A program made the position numbers and the translations under genes. Positions 2,930 through 33,862 of a DNA stretch of 34,672 nucleotides are shown here, in pieces. The notes beneath the pieces were generated by a model. The model was not told where the DNA came from, searched no databases, and saw nothing but the letters and a program-made list of their open reading frames with translations. The stretch is from Anaerolineae bacterium (GTDB taxonomy: Bacteria > Chloroflexota > Anaerolineae > Aggregatilineales > UBA3940): assembly GCA_016926255.1 (NCBI GenBank), contig JAFGOY010000073.1, forward strand, positions 1-34,672, read 5' to 3'. Every line of letters begins with the position of its first letter. Within the stretch, counting starts at the first letter, position 1.

Positions 2930-2941
2930 TCATCTACAAAG

Positions 2942-3034
2942 GCGTGGACGGTCGATCAGTTGGAGGAGTCGCTCGGCGCGGTAGGGTATCGGCTGAGCGA
3001 TGAGGAGCTGGATAATCTGCTGTTAGCAGATTAA
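2942..3034 (+). pseudogene. Orphan 3' end of an aldo/keto reductase, copy 2
   Basis: Reads [18 protein letters not shown] then SDEELDNLLLAD and TAA. The match with 1100-1170 and 2150-2210 is clear until about 3010, where the sequence runs into a hairpin. There is no start codon. It begins 12 bases after the stop of the 2252-2929 gene. The final codons are made by an inverted repeat, which looks like a junction. Confidence 0.88.
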
Positions 3035-3082: not shown

Positions 3083-3148
3083 CATCTCCCCCAAGCTGGG
3101 GGCGATCAAGAAGCGTTCGATTTTGTGGGTGGCATCCCTACGAGCCGG
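3083..3148. repeat. Dispersed palindrome CCCCCAAGCTGGGGG plus TACGAGCCGG
   Basis: The block around CCCCCAAGCTGGGGG (26 bases, 3083-3108) recurs with a single change at 4810-4835. The word TACGAGCCGG at 3139-3148 recurs at 4707-4716 and 4900-4909, each time near the end of a palindrome block. This places the blocks between 3.0 and 4.9 kb in one dispersed repeat family. Confidence 0.65.
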
Positions 3149-4684: not shown

Positions 4685-4909
4685 CGGGCACAGCGGGCTG
4701 TGCCCGTACGAGCCGGAGTACAAAGGTAATCCGTCAGATTCGCTCGGCGGCTCTCAGCCGCGCACTGCGGGCGTGGAAAAAATCGCCCCCTCTGGCCGAC
4801 TTTGTCGCCCATCTCCCCCAATCTGGGGGCGATCAGGGTTGGCATGGATTGATACGGCATGGGATGGCGATCAGGGCGGGCGACCGCGAGGGTCGCCTCT
4901 ACGAGCCGG
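4685..4909. repeat. Gene-poor stretch of palindromic repeats
   Basis: Between the genes ending at 4674 and starting at 4922. It contains CGGGCACAGC/GCTGTGCCCG (4685-4706), the CCCCCAATCTGGGGG block (4810-4835, second copy of 3083-3108), and GGCGACC (4879-4885) pairing with GGTCGCC (4891-4897). TACGAGCCGG follows the first and last hairpins (4707-4716, 4900-4909). Hairpins of the form GGGCGACC...GGTCGCCC followed by TACG are a common intergenic repeat type in Chloroflexota and some other phyla. An antisense rsmH tail (4734-4775) is embedded here. Confidence 0.65.
4734..4775 (-). pseudogene. Orphan 3' end of an rsmH gene
   Basis: On the minus strand this short stretch reads HARSARLRAAERI then TGA. 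The intact rsmH at 5501-6436 ends [16 protein letters not shown] then TGA. Over the ten aligned codons ARSARLR-x-AER I count 24 of 30 bases identical, with only one residue changed. The orientation is the same as rsmH. It lies about 770 bases beyond the true rsmH end, with the plus-strand accessory gene 4922-5488 between. It is short, but the C-terminal signature is highly characteristic of rsmH. Confidence 0.72.
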
Positions 4910-6457: not shown

Positions 6458-6476
6458 ATCCACAGATGACACAGAT
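6458..6476 (+). repeat. Dispersed ATCCACAGATGACACAGAT repeat, copy 1
   Basis: Near-identical to 9285-9302 (one base differs over the shared 18). Both copies are followed within about 120 bases by a CCGCGAATTGG word (about 6554 and 9383). This looks like an intergenic repeat family. The ACAGAT word is itself repeated within each copy. Confidence 0.6.
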
Positions 6477-6617
6477 ATCACAGATTTTTGTCTTCATGAG
6501 ATTGTGGGCGGATAGGCCTGGAGTGAGTGTGGGCAGCGTTGGAGGATTCGATCCGCGAATTGGAAATTTAGGCGACCGGCCACCGTCCGCCGAGGGTAAT
6601 CTATGATGACGCGGCTA

Positions 6618-8353: not shown

Positions 8354-9295
8354 ATGACCAGACGTCGATACTGGTTGGGAACAGGGCTGGCACTGGGCGC
8401 GGGGATCAGCGCCGGGGTGATGCTCTGGCAGCGCGAACAGCGCAAACTGCGGTCGGTGAGTGTGCCTGCACAGCGGGCGCGGAGCCTGCTCGAACGGGCC
8501 GCACCGCTGATCCGGCTGCCCACCTCGCCCGGCTGCGAGCCGCAGGTACTCAACAACGGATCAGGGCTGCGCTGCCAGGAAACCGGGACGATCTACCCGT
8601 ACCGGCGCGGGGTGCTCGACCTGATCGTCGGGGAAACGGACAACACATTTACCCAGGACGCGCTCGATACGCCGCTGACGGCCTGGGGATACGATGCGGC
8701 ACGGGGGATGATCACCGGGCTGCTGCGCGTGCAGCCCTTCGCCGAGGAGTTCTCCGACATACAGGAAATCCAGCAGTACCGGGCGGGCGATGTCGCCTTC
8801 GACCTGGCGTGCGGGCAGGGCAACTTCACGGTGGAGATCGCCAAGCGGGTGGGCGACGACGGGCTGGTGATCGGCCTCGACCTCTCCCCGGCGATGCTGG
8901 CGCGGGCCGCGTATCACGTCGAGCGGTGGGGGCTGAAGAACGTCTTCCTGATCCGGGGCGATGCGCTCAACCTGCCGTTCCATGACGGGGTGTTCAAAAA
9001 GCTCAACTGCTCCGGTGGGTTCCACCAGTTCCCCGATCTCCCACAGGCGATCAGGGAGTTGGGGCGGGTGAGCAGCAGCGGGGCGATCCTGACGGCGGGG
9101 ACGTTCGCCGAGGGAACGTCAGACCGGTACGCGGCGATCAAGCGGCGGCTGAAAGAGCGATTCGCGCTGCACTTCGTGCCACTCATCCCGCTGGGATCGG
9201 AGCTGGAGGCGGTGGGCTTCAACGATTATGACTGGTCGATGCCGGGGCCGTGGTTCGGGTATGCGTCGGCGCGGAAGGATTCAGTCCACAGATGA
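8354..9295 (+). CDS. Membrane-anchored class I SAM-dependent methyltransferase
   Basis: 313 residues. An N-terminal hydrophobic segment (WLGTGLALGAGISAGVMLW, residues ~7-25) probably anchors it in the membrane. A short Trm112-like stretch follows (LRCQETGTIYPYRRGVLDLI, about 72-91), often found before ubiE/BioC-like methyltransferases. The SAM fold shows motif I as VAFDLACGQGNFTVEIAKRV, the acidic end of strand 2 as VIGLDLSPAML, then IRGDALNLPF and LPQAIRELGRV. The substrate is unknown; lipid or quinone-like molecules would fit the anchor. The stop codon falls inside the dispersed repeat at 9285-9302, so the last residues (DSVHR) may be derived from the repeat. Confidence 0.9.
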   Translation: MTRRRYWLGTGLALGAGISAGVMLWQREQRKLRSVSVPAQRARSLLERAAPLIRLPTSPGCEPQVLNNGSGLRCQETGTIYPYRRGVLDLIVGETDNTFTQDALDTPLTAWGYDAARGMITGLLRVQPFAEEFSDIQEIQQYRAGDVAFDLACGQGNFTVEIAKRVGDDGLVIGLDLSPAMLARAAYHVERWGLKNVFLIRGDALNLPFHDGVFKKLNCSGGFHQFPDLPQAIRELGRVSSSGAILTAGTFAEGTSDRYAAIKRRLKERFALHFVPLIPLGSELEAVGFNDYDWSMPGPWFGYASARKDSVHR

Positions 9296-9302
9296 CACCG
9301 AT
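9285..9302 (+). repeat. Dispersed TCCACAGATGACACCGAT repeat, copy 2
   Basis: Second copy of the repeat at 6458-6476. It overlaps the stop codon of the methyltransferase gene (TGA inside GATGACAC). Confidence 0.6.
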
Positions 9303-9383
9303 TCCCCAGATGTTTGGATGGGTCGAAACTGTTCTCTATCAGGCTTGAGTCGGGTGTAAAGGTGATAGGCGGGGATTTGGCCC

Positions 9384-30438: not shown

Positions 30439-32007
30439 ATGCTGTATCCAATATCGAATTACTATCGACAGGTCACCGATCTGTCGGGGATGTGGGAAAT
30501 ACGCTTCGACCCGGACGACGAGGGTCGTGAGGCAGGCTGGGCCGCCGGCTTCGAAGGCGGTCAGCCGATAGCCGTTCCGGCAAGCTGGAACGAGCAGTTC
30601 GCCGCCGCCCACGACTATACCGGCGCGGCGTGGGTTCAACTGCAATTCGACCGCCCCTGGGGCTGGGCCGATCAGCGCTGCTACCTGCGCTTCGACGCGG
30701 TCAGCTACCGCGCCGAAGTCTGGCTCAACGGCGTGGCGATGGGCGAGCACGTCGGCGGCTATCTGCCCTTCGAGTTCGACGTGATGCACTACCTCGCCCC
30801 GGTCGACAACATGCTGGTCGTCCGGGTGGAAGGATCGCCGGATGGGGGCGGAGCCTGCGGCATCCAGCGCCCGACGATGATCTATACCCGGCCACACGGA
30901 TCGATCCGCAGCCTGGCCGTGCAGACCGGGATCGACGGCCCGACCGGGCTGGTGCGCGCCGTCATGGAGCGAACGGCAGGCGAGCCGGTGACCGCCCGCT
31001 TTGTGCTGCGCGGTTTCGATATCGAACTGGTCGAGCAGGCCCGATCCGACGAGCAGCTCACCGAGGTGAATTTCAGCGTGCCCGACGCGGAACTATGGGC
31101 ACCGGGCGCGCCGAACCGCTATCAACTCGATGTCGACCTTCTCGGCGACGAGGGGATATTCGATCAATACACGCTGCCGGTCGGAATCCGGTCGGCGGCG
31201 GTCGATGGGGATCAACTGCTGCTGAACGGCGAGCCGGTCGTGCTGCGCGGCTTCGGCTACCGCGACGATTTCCCGGTGACCGGCGAGGGGGTGACCCCGG
31301 CGGCGATCATCAGGGATTTCGAATGGATGCAGCGGCTGGGGGCGAACGCGCTGCGAACGGCAGGGCATCCCTGCTCGGAGGAGGCGATCCGGCTGGCCGA
31401 CCGGCTGGGGCTGATGGTGGTGGTCGAAGCGCCTGCGCTGCCCGATTCCGGCAACCCGGGGGCGGAGCGCAGGCGGGAAGAATCGGCGCAGGTTGTCTGC
31501 CAGATGATCGAGCGCGATAAGAATCACCCGTCGGTGATCGCCTGGTGCGTGGCGAACGACCCGGTGGATCGGGCGGGGACGAAGGCGCTGGTCGACATGG
31601 CGAAGGAACTCGACCCGGCCCGCCCGGTGGCGATAGCCAGCCGCCGGGCGGCGGCGGATTCATTCGAGTTTTGCGACATCGCCTGCCTGACGGTCGACGC
31701 GGGGCAAGGCGGTGCCGACTTACCGGCGGCGGTCGGGGCGGTCGGCAGGCCGGTGATGATCGACGCGGCAGGTGCGGAAGCGGTCGCCGGGCTGCACGCC
31801 GATCCGCCGGAGCCACTGAGCGAGGAACAGCAGGCCGATCTGCTGCTCGATGCCATCGAGGTGATGGAGTCGATCCCGGCGGTGGTGGGGCAGTTCATCG
31901 GGATGCTGTGCGATACTCGGGGGGATCGGTCGGGCGCACTGACGCGGGATCGCAGACCGAAGCTGGCGGCGTGGCGCGTCGGGGAGCGGTGGAGAGATAA
32001 AGGATGA
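30439..32007 (+). CDS. Glycoside hydrolase family 2 (beta-glucuronidase-like) protein with both catalytic glutamates replaced
   Basis: 522 residues. The three GH2 domains are visible: jelly-roll (DLSGMWEIRFDPDDEG, LRFDAVSYRAEVWLNGVAMGEHVGGYLPFEFDV), immunoglobulin-like (~165-265, ending GIRSAAVDGDQLLLNGEPVVLRGFGYRDDFP), and barrel (RTAGHPCSEEAIRLADRLGLMVVVEAP, NHPSVIAWCVANDP). The acid/base Glu expected in the N-E pair after NHPSVI is Asp374 (ANDP). The nucleophile, Glu in the T-E-Y-G motif of glucuronidases, aligns with Ala443 in MIDAAGAEAVAGLH. The sugar-recognising N-x-K loop near LTRDRRPKLAAW is also changed. The frame is otherwise intact, so this looks like a retained non-catalytic relative. 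No signal peptide, hence cytosolic. The next gene overlaps its stop by four bases (ATGA). Confidence 0.93.
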   Translation: MLYPISNYYRQVTDLSGMWEIRFDPDDEGREAGWAAGFEGGQPIAVPASWNEQFAAAHDYTGAAWVQLQFDRPWGWADQRCYLRFDAVSYRAEVWLNGVAMGEHVGGYLPFEFDVMHYLAPVDNMLVVRVEGSPDGGGACGIQRPTMIYTRPHGSIRSLAVQTGIDGPTGLVRAVMERTAGEPVTARFVLRGFDIELVEQARSDEQLTEVNFSVPDAELWAPGAPNRYQLDVDLLGDEGIFDQYTLPVGIRSAAVDGDQLLLNGEPVVLRGFGYRDDFPVTGEGVTPAAIIRDFEWMQRLGANALRTAGHPCSEEAIRLADRLGLMVVVEAPALPDSGNPGAERRREESAQVVCQMIERDKNHPSVIAWCVANDPVDRAGTKALVDMAKELDPARPVAIASRRAAADSFEFCDIACLTVDAGQGGADLPAAVGAVGRPVMIDAAGAEAVAGLHADPPEPLSEEQQADLLLDAIEVMESIPAVVGQFIGMLCDTRGDRSGALTRDRRPKLAAWRVGERWRDKG

Positions 32008-32423
32008 CGGTGGCTGATGAAATACATAAAGACGGCCAGTTTCCGGTACTGATTGATAACAGGGAACGGGCTGTCGAGGCGTTGGATTCGGGCGATCCGC
32101 TCCATATCAAATATGCGCTTGCCCAGATAACCTATTTTGAGCGTGATTGGCAGTGGTTTCAGGATCAATGCCTCCGGTTCTTGCATCATGAGGATCATCA
32201 GGTGAGGGCTTTAGCTGCCGGTAAACTTGGCGATATCGCTATTATTCACAAGCAGAGTGAGCAAAAAGTGATCGATGCTTTGGAAGTACTGCTGCACGAT
32301 CCTGTACCTGAAGTCGCTGTTTCTGCGGAAGAGTCTATTGGTTCAATTCGGCATTATGTCCCCAGCCTTCGGGAGAACCGGTTCAAGCGGCTGTGGGTAA
32401 AGATCGTGCGCAGATCGGGATAG
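32004..32423 (+). CDS. Small HEAT-repeat protein
   Basis: 139 residues, all-helical, soluble. HEAT-type repeats are visible: ERAVEALDSGDPLHIKYALAQITYFERDW, LRFLHHEDHQVRALAAGKLGDIAII, LEVLLHDPVPEVAVSAEESIGSI. The start overlaps the GH2 stop (ATGA), so it is translationally coupled, yet it is AT-richer than that gene. Small HEAT proteins of this kind often occur as immunity or accessory proteins in toxin-related loci; that link is inference here. Next to it lies another immunity-sized gene (32474-32800). Confidence 0.82.
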   Translation: MTVADEIHKDGQFPVLIDNRERAVEALDSGDPLHIKYALAQITYFERDWQWFQDQCLRFLHHEDHQVRALAAGKLGDIAIIHKQSEQKVIDALEVLLHDPVPEVAVSAEESIGSIRHYVPSLRENRFKRLWVKIVRRSG

Positions 32424-32473: not shown

Positions 32474-32800
32474 ATGATCATAGAGTGTGAGAATTACACA
32501 ATCACAAGTATGGATGAAAACTGGGCTGAACCACTCGATATCAACAACGACAATGTCGATGTTTTCGTTGAAATGAACAACGGTGATCGGTATGTGGCGA
32601 CATTCTTCACACTCGAAAACATCAAATCTATAATGGACAAAGATCGGCAAACAAGCGAGTGCAACAGCGGACAGTATTTCTGGGCGTCTGACATGATAAT
32701 CGTTGAAAAGATCACACCGGAGATTGTTCAATCAACGGTGGAATCTTTGATATCGGACGGGGAATTCGAGCGGGCTTTCTCCGGGCCATTCAGGGATTAA
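32474..32800 (+). CDS. Unrecognised small protein, immunity-sized (accessory gene)
   Basis: 108 residues, acidic and soluble, no signal peptide: IIECENYTITSMDENWAEPL, then DNVDVFVEMNNGDRYVATFF, YFWASDMIIVEKITPE and a C-terminal helix ending AFSGPFRD. The even spread and alpha/beta pattern suggest a compact domain; I cannot name the family. AAGG lies about 12 bases before the ATG, a poor distance. It is strongly AT-rich compared with the neighbouring core genes. A copied 3' end of the TauE-type gene starts 38 bases after its stop, as seen for the genes inserted near the aldo/keto reductase. Confidence 0.72.
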   Translation: MIIECENYTITSMDENWAEPLDINNDNVDVFVEMNNGDRYVATFFTLENIKSIMDKDRQTSECNSGQYFWASDMIIVEKITPEIVQSTVESLISDGEFERAFSGPFRD

Positions 32801-32804
32801 CCAT

Positions 32805-32918
32805 ATGCTCGACCAAATGATCGCAACAACCTGGGGTGATCGGCACATCGACCCGGCGCTGTTTTACAAGATCGTGCTGGTGCTGCTGATCGTGTTGGGG
32901 CTGGGGCTGTTGTTTTGA
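32805..32918 (+). pseudogene. Orphan 3' end of a TauE/SafE-type transporter gene
   Basis: A 37-codon frame whose last 26 codons and stop (32838-32918) match the end of the intact transporter gene (33746-33826): DRHIDPALFYKIVLVLLIVL then GLGLLF. Differences include synonymous changes (GAT/GAC, TTT/TTC, TTG/CTG), Tyr for Arg and Gly for Ser. The eleven codons before it (MLDQMIATTWG) are unrelated to the transporter and may be a filler start. It encodes only one hydrophobic segment and is probably not a functional gene. Confidence 0.88.
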
Positions 32919-32981
32919 GGCGGGGACATTGGCAGGGGGCCGGGTTTATGCCGGGGAATATACGACCGGTGGGCACCTGGC

Positions 32982-33044
32982 CTGATCAGAGATTGTTACT
33001 GGCCGACCGCGCTCTACGACCTGGAAAAGGCCCTGTTCGAATAA
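32982..33044 (+). pseudogene. Possible orphan 3' end of an unidentified gene
   Basis: An open stretch reads LIRDCYWPTALYDLEKALFE then TAA. It has a protein-like composition, but no usable start and no recognised parent gene in the window. It lies between the copied TauE tail and the intact TauE gene. The rest of 32919-33112 shows no gene. Confidence 0.35.
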
Positions 33045-33099
33045 GCACCGCTCGTTTCTGAACCATTCGGGATGACGGGATTTATACCGGCCCCGATGG

Positions 33100-33105
33100 T
33101 ATAAT
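33100..33105 (+). promoter_or_regulatory. -10 box of the TauE gene, probably leaderless
   Basis: A perfect TATAAT ends eight bases before ATG 33113, so transcription would start at about the A of the start codon. There is no ribosome site (CCCCCC precedes the ATG). The ATG at 33104 lies inside the -10 and is unlikely to be the start. Confidence 0.6.
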
Positions 33106-33112
33106 GCCCCCC

Positions 33113-33826
33113 ATGCCTGAAATCATCCTCATTTCCGGGATCATGATTTTTGCCAGCTTCACCCAGAGCGTCGCCGGGTTTGGATTGGCGCTGGTTGCGA
33201 TGCCGCTGCTGGTCAACCTGATCGGGCTGGAGGTCGCCGCGCCGTTCATCGCGGTGATCAGCCTGTTCATCCAGATTCCGGTGCTGATCCGCTACCGCAA
33301 AGACCTCGACCTGCGCTCGACCGGTCGGCTCACCGCCGCGATGATGCTGGCGATCCCGATCGGCGTGATCGGGCTGAAGCGGCTCGACGAGAACATCATG
33401 CTGGGCATCCTGGGGATCGTCGTGACCGGCTACGCGATCTACGCGCTGGTCACGCCCCGGCTGCCGGAATTGAAATCGCCGAACTGGGCCTACCCGTTTG
33501 GATTTGTCGGCGGGCTGCTGAGCGGGGCCTACAGCACCGGCGGGCCACCGCTGGTGATCTACGGAAACTTCAGCCGCTGGGAGCCGGGGGAGTTCAAGGC
33601 CAATTTGCAGGCGACTTTCACGCTGACCGCCTTCGTGCAGATCGCGTCGCACGGGCTGTTCGGGAACCTGACGCCGGTCATGTGGCGCAGCCTGCTGTTC
33701 GCGCTGCCGGGCGTGGCGATCGGGGTGGTGCTGGGCCTGAGCCTTGACCGGCACATCGACCCGGCGCTGTTCCGAAAGATCGTGCTGGTGCTGCTGATCG
33801 TGCTGGGGCTGAGCCTGTTGTTTTGA
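33113..33826 (+). CDS. TauE/SafE-family (sulfite/organosulfonate exporter-type) permease
   Basis: 237 residues with about eight transmembrane helices. N-terminal signature ISGIMIFASFTQSVAGFGLALVAMPLL, the first half-repeat of the family. The second repeat shows WAYPFGFVGGLLSGAYSTGGPPLVIYG, the conserved G-x-x-G-G-x-x-x-G-x-(G/S)-GP(P/L) block. The last helix ends LVLLIVLGLSLLF. Members export sulfite, sulfonates or related anions; the substrate is not predictable. Start at ATG 33113 (leaderless, see the -10 entry). An orphan copy of its last ~80 bases lies 0.9 kb upstream. Confidence 0.93.
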   Translation: MPEIILISGIMIFASFTQSVAGFGLALVAMPLLVNLIGLEVAAPFIAVISLFIQIPVLIRYRKDLDLRSTGRLTAAMMLAIPIGVIGLKRLDENIMLGILGIVVTGYAIYALVTPRLPELKSPNWAYPFGFVGGLLSGAYSTGGPPLVIYGNFSRWEPGEFKANLQATFTLTAFVQIASHGLFGNLTPVMWRSLLFALPGVAIGVVLGLSLDRHIDPALFRKIVLVLLIVLGLSLLF

Positions 33827-33862
33827 GGGGGTAGAGATCAGTGAATAATGAATCGACAGGCA

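Follow-up and report, generated by a model that had tools for sequence, protein, structure and literature searches.

Gene ends as sites of displacement in described systems

Integrases insert at the 3′ ends of tRNA genes and of some protein genes, restoring the end that they interrupt. Such elements leave a gene with a new end, an insert and a displaced old end, as do the loci described here, which, however, show no integrase among the insert genes tested and no common attachment core, and whose inserts span only 0.6-2.4 kb. In homology-facilitated illegitimate recombination, one end of the incoming DNA is anchored by homology and the other is joined without it; a duplicated end that is always the 3′ one has, to our knowledge, not been described as a signature of this process, and the one-sided events described experimentally usually lead to loss, not to duplication, of recipient DNA.

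The same process has been proposed for V. cholerae T6SS effector arrays and for Rhs loci (Kirchberger et al. 2017, PMC5361080). In Rhs/CDI loci and T6SS arrays (PMC5361080), a conserved gene anchors the incoming DNA, the former 3′ end is moved downstream, and arrays grow as such events recur, in a manner resembling the loci reported below. In those systems a toxin tip is what becomes displaced, and immunity genes under selection travel as passengers; the loci below have housekeeping genes as parents, their tails comprise the last residues only, the passengers are varied, and among the accessory proteins found in the window there was no Imm family. Homology-facilitated illegitimate recombination in transformable Acinetobacter, Streptococcus and Pseudomonas stutzeri, as cited in PMC5361080 and elsewhere, likewise combines one homologous anchor, one non-homologous join and a net gain of foreign DNA, but those were laboratory events. 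Finally, Nobusato et al. (2000, via PMC1643837) described restriction-modification genes of Helicobacter pylori as insertions with long target duplication; in that secondary account, accessory genes lie between direct repeats of target sequence, as they do here, but the duplication belongs to the target, whereas the copies considered here had diverged as coding sequence.

The TauE and aldo-keto reductase loci

The stretch analysed (the window) is a single contig of 34,672 bases (C24) from a 4.61-Mb genome in 82 contigs, whose assembly is 96% complete with 2.7% contamination. Among the genomes listed there was no second member of the genus, and the family was represented by only a few, distant ones. 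The right-hand part of the window contains the following features:

32004-32423, + strand: AT-rich HEAT-repeat gene (PF02985; GC3 0.52, 1.6th percentile)
32474-32800, + strand: AT-rich gene for a 108-aa protein (from composition and an order-wide family search)
32837-32923, + strand: orphan 3′ tail of TauE, preceding the intact gene (90% identity, ungapped, in frame)
32982-33044, + strand: short open stretch encoding LIRDCYWPTALYDLEKALFE-stop (parentless in the genome and in the order)
33104-33826, + strand: intact TauE/SafE family gene, the parent (PF01925, E 3.5e-31)
33745-33831, + strand: TauE 3′ end present twice (repeat comparison)

A sequence-only reading of the window had placed a repeat of the TauE 3′ end at 32838-32918, and this observation holds: positions 32837-32923 and 33745-33831 form a direct, ungapped, in-frame repeat of 87 nt with 90% identity (E ~9e-27 within the window), and these two copies are the only ones in the 4.61 Mb of the whole genome. 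The orphan copy encodes DRHIDPALFYKIVLVLLIVLGLGLLF-stop and its counterpart in TauE DRHIDPALFRKIVLVLLIVLGLSLLF-stop, the stop codon of both copies, read in frame, being TGA. The orphan sits behind the HEAT-repeat gene (32004-32423), which overlaps the end of an upstream glycoside-hydrolase-like gene, and the 108-aa gene, both AT-rich, and it lies upstream of the intact TauE.

The gene at 32474-32800 was correctly described as AT-rich (GC 0.44 against 0.58 for the average gene). Its immunity-like size was not matched by an immunity assignment: the protein had no Pfam, NCBIfam or Imm family above cut-off, and relatives were found in 63 of the 154 genomes of the order, one per genome. It is a conserved small protein without a name. 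Conserved neighbourhood with TauE was considered and rejected, as relatives of the two were not adjacent wherever one genome had both. The peptide LIRDCYWPTALYDLEKALFE, which had been taken for the tail of another parent, has no second copy in the genome (by DNA comparison and with the six-frame self-comparison of the window included), and a search for its parent gene in the 154 genomes of the order returned chance-level matches only and no convincing parent; its designation as a tail was a guess. The intact TauE gene (33104-33826) has a GC3 of 0.90, at the top of the genome range, among AT-rich neighbours, and may itself have been imported.

At the other end of the window, an aldo-keto reductase gene is followed by two accessory genes and two tails:

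232-1191, + strand: aldo-keto reductase gene, first parent in the window (PF00248, E 6e-79)
1229-2128, + strand: AT-rich accessory gene 1, between the parent and the first orphan tail (GC3 0.48, 0.5th percentile)
2132-2240, + strand: orphan aldo-keto reductase tail 1 (84% identity to 1082-1190)
2252-2929, + strand: AT-rich accessory gene 2, of no known family (GC3 0.49, 0.6th percentile)
2941-3007, + strand: orphan aldo-keto reductase tail 2 (67 nt shared with the parent at 90% identity, 64 nt with tail 1 at 94%)

The duplicated part of the reductase is its 3′ end (1082-1190), and accessory gene 1 had no family match above cut-off. Tail 1 runs in frame to a stop at 2247, while tail 2 has its own, different C-terminal end with a stop at 3034. 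The ends read ...DEEIEVLNGASG, a 14-letter ending and ...DEELDNLLLAD, and look like the C-termini of three different enzymes. Elsewhere in the window, a 32-nt intergenic repeat (TCCACAGATGACACAGAT...) occurs at 6459-6490 and 9285-9316 with 84% identity and is not a gene tail.

The window thus holds two parent genes (aldo-keto reductase and TauE) and three orphan tails in total. The three unrelated parents in 34 kb counted by the sequence-only reading are not borne out, since neither DNA nor six-frame self-comparison revealed a third. At TauE the orphan is upstream of its parent, unlike the seven other cases described below, where it is downstream. With its order reversed, the TauE locus is the weakest member of the set.

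Orphan 3′ ends across the genome

The sequence-only reading also predicted an excess of duplicated 3′ ends over 5′ ends throughout the genome, and this is what we found. Of the 4.61 Mb, the search covered 2.02 Mb, made up of 1.67 Mb from 27 contigs and 354 kb from another 20, with genes called by a simple codon-model script that missed some AT-rich genes. Tails were sought at the DNA level by local self-comparison within 8 kb, and at the protein level by comparing each gene with its own 6-kb surroundings. Ten orphan 3′ tails were identified at eight parent genes, against zero orphan 5′ ends and no genuine internal segment in the 2.02 Mb by either scan (two-sided sign test by gene, p=0.008). 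In the DNA scan, seven genes had a short copy of their 3′ end outside the gene itself, and none had such a copy of its 5′ end; the protein scan found the longer tails again and contributed a further, diverged case on contig C10, where an acyltransferase-like gene is followed by a cyclic-nucleotide-binding-like gene (by eye) and a tail ('WLAYRPLAIYF...'). The parents are aldo-keto reductase (two tails), the cell-division protein FtsA (two tails), a MacB/FtsX-like ABC permease, a TPR gene, a flavodoxin, a glycosyltransferase, the acyltransferase-like gene and TauE, the names FtsA, ABC permease, glycosyltransferase and acyltransferase having been read from the sequence without a family search. 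No clean tail case came from the additional 354 kb.

Several candidates were set aside. Three matches of the DNA scan looked internal: one was the second tail of the aldo-keto reductase, another a dispersed palindromic repeat and the third a giant, repetitive gene. The N-terminal matches of the protein scan were paralogous neighbours. Tandem zinc-ribbon genes on C21 that resembled a 5′ copy are both small and complete, a third FtsA 'tail' at position 20774 of C15 and an internal match on C11 are dispersed palindromic repeats, and a 339-nt match on C34, which extends 63 nt beyond a stop, was left out of the count. Contig C14 looked like an integron-like array; the repeats behind its genes are dispersed palindromic intergenic repeats (CCCCCT...AGGGGG type) and not tails. 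Such REP-like repeats stand behind many genes (window 3083-3108 and 4810-4835; C14 throughout; C15 58250-97578), and on C14 they follow almost all genes of a row that runs in one direction. Contig C23 contains a single 40-kb open reading frame with internal repeats (61836-101936).

As controls, 400 kb from another genome in the order were run through the same DNA pipeline and gave no tails, and 500 kb of E. coli K-12 gave none at housekeeping genes; the latter did yield the known rhsD - ybbC - ylbH displaced tip, which served as a positive control. Seven genes per 2.02 Mb correspond to about three expected in the 0.9 Mb of control sequence, where zero were observed (P ~0.045), so that the absence of tails in the control sequence is suggestive only.

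Anatomy and composition of the tail loci

The order gene, accessory gene or genes, tail of that gene was found at seven of the eight parents, TauE being the exception. Tails measure 35-210 nt and are 76-96% identical to their parents at the DNA level in the main cases. Two tails each are stacked at the aldo-keto reductase and at ftsA, the latter array reading FtsA - gpmA-like gene - tail 1 - zinc-ribbon gene - tail 2, and stacked tails are unlike each other and unlike the parent. The gaps from the parent stop to the accessory gene (mostly 4-75 nt) and from the tail stop to the next gene in the same direction (mostly 4-69 nt) are of ordinary size, and both therefore look like natural junctions, so that only the joint between accessory gene and tail (1-108 nt) looks new. 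At these accessory-tail boundaries there is no likeness to the parent upstream of the tail and no extended homology, and the tail start points share no common sequence or motif. None of the insert genes tested encodes an integrase or recombinase; action in trans is conceivable.

The accessory genes are foreign in composition: their median GC3 is 0.53, compared with 0.70 across 1,279 genes (p=1.6e-7), the gpmA, toxin-antitoxin and LCM methyltransferase genes being less extreme. Families among the inserts comprise Phd/YefM with YoeB (toxin-antitoxin), a PIN toxin, zinc-ribbon, a SAM methyltransferase with an ISAzo13 transposase, an LCM methyltransferase and HEAT. The possibility that the inserts are orphan immunity genes was rejected, no Imm, NCBIfam or PADLOC family supporting it among the accessory proteins of the window. 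Tails mark a minority of the AT-rich genes: 2 of the 43 low-GC3 clusters called adjoin a tail, several inserts having been missed by the gene caller.

Divergence of parents and tails

Nine parent-tail pairs show 111 differences, of which 32 are at the first codon position, 13 at the second and 66 at the third (p=2e-8 relative to one third), in a test that pools the pairs and in which the youngest case, the TPR tail (96%), is not judgeable alone. The differing codons comprise 51 synonymous and 34 non-synonymous ones. This third-position excess, unlike the decay of a dead copy, indicates that parent and orphan mostly diverged as working genes, before they were joined, which in turn points to different lineages meeting in one chromosome. 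Small indels in the glycosyltransferase, flavodoxin and ABC permease tails indicate that some decay came afterwards.

Origin of the orphan tails

Ten orphan 3′ ends at eight genes against zero 5′ ends make a single recurring process likely. We propose, with a probability of roughly 0.55 and from sequence comparison, that one-sided (homology-facilitated illegitimate) recombination with DNA from related bacteria left the tails behind as scars. A piece of DNA holding the 3′ part of a gene X′ and, behind it, an accessory gene A would pair by homology with the X of the recipient, and its far end, just past A, would be joined without homology inside that X, near the 3′ end. The product would be an intact hybrid X, then A, then the old X tail of the recipient in front of the gene that originally lay downstream. 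Another such event at X would shift the first scar downstream and give X-A1-tail-A2-tail, each event bringing the tail of a different lineage, hence the unlikeness of stacked tails. We infer incoming DNA as the cause, which tail is the old one and the order of events; among the readings considered, one-sided recombination is the best explanation, as a single step of it would leave the parent intact, bring in the passenger, displace the tail, allow for stacking and account for the coding-like divergence. Uptake of DNA by this genome is plausible from its gene content, which includes ComEC- and DprA-family proteins, such proteins being widespread in the control genomes as well. Two DprA-family genes lie about 9 kb apart on contig C78 (43773-44327 and 52714-53343). 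Joining by Ku was discarded as a route, the genome having no Ku gene.

Several points count against one-sided recombination. The experimentally described events of its kind are rare and usually of the deleting sort; the order at TauE is reversed; small indels show that some of the tails decayed later; and by itself it leaves the shortness of the tails (35-210 nt) and the lack of 5′ duplicates unexplained, so that selection is needed. Selection may lie behind the lack of 5′ scars, in that a leftover 5′ end would keep its promoter and start codon while a leftover 3′ end would be silent, and an old tail would preserve the start signals or start region of the next gene. At TauE, a second TauE copy may have been overwritten from the upstream side, its last 81 bases being left as the orphan; we hold this loosely, as the simplest reading of that orphan.

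The anatomy of the loci also recalls accessory genes inserting by a process that duplicates 35-210 bases of the target, a kind known in the literature, in which selfish or accessory genes lie in an insert between direct repeats. Tails formed in this way would be identical at birth and would decay evenly, whereas the differences are mostly at third positions and stacked tails are unlike; only the TPR tail (96%) is young enough for an easy fit, and the 3′ restriction would be left unexplained, which makes long target duplication quite unlikely. Tandem gene duplication followed by truncation of one copy would make the TauE orphan the last piece of an older TauE copy, and its position upstream of the intact gene does fit a truncated first copy better than X-A-tail; remnants of both 5′ and 3′ ends and of every length would be expected, however, in place of short 3′ ones with an accessory gene at each boundary, and we consider this origin unlikely. 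As for misjoined strains of a mixed sample, the 82 contigs, the 2.7% contamination and tail differences within the between-strain range would allow for them, but a misjoin requires homology at the junction, which A and tail do not have, case-bearing contigs reach 195 kb, and assembly errors have no 3′ preference; an artefact of this sort is highly improbable.

A mobile system targeting 3′ ends, the other mechanism suggested by the sequence-only reading, found no positive support. An enzyme that inserts genes near 3′ ends in a site-specific or cassette-like manner, restoring the end and displacing the old one downstream, would account for the 3′ restriction, and the compact inserts (1-108 nt from A to tail) and the stacking recall a cassette array; with tail starts that share no common sequence, no integrase among the insert genes tested and eight unrelated targets, it is nevertheless very doubtful. 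More speculatively, host gene tails could be exchange sites of a cassette-like gene pool, that is, attachment sites without an integrase, where, once an X-A-tail locus has formed, tail-tail recombination would release a circle of A plus tail able to enter related genomes at their own X tail. We regard this as improbable; if true, the 3′ restriction would be a property of the system and not of selection alone. Of the two suggestions, homology-assisted illegitimate recombination is the better supported form of one recurring process. Taken together, the initial observation is partly confirmed and its interpretation partly supported: the TauE repeat and the 3′ excess stand, a third parent was not found in the window, the 'tail-like' peptide has no convincing parent, and the order at TauE is the reverse of that at the other seven genes.

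Significance of the orphan tails

The mechanism is probably a known one and the set of loci unusual; what is new is that the tails of housekeeping genes record the process, repeatedly, in one genome. If one-sided recombination is the correct reading, orphan tails would be a readable footprint of single-gene gain by this route, for which direct traces are usually lacking when it is invoked. From them one could read the exact insert, the gene that received it, how many events took place and in what order, and whether a genome acquires genes in this way, and selection could be tested against mechanism as the cause of the missing 5′ copies. Genes as constrained as ftsA would then serve as landing sites for foreign genes.
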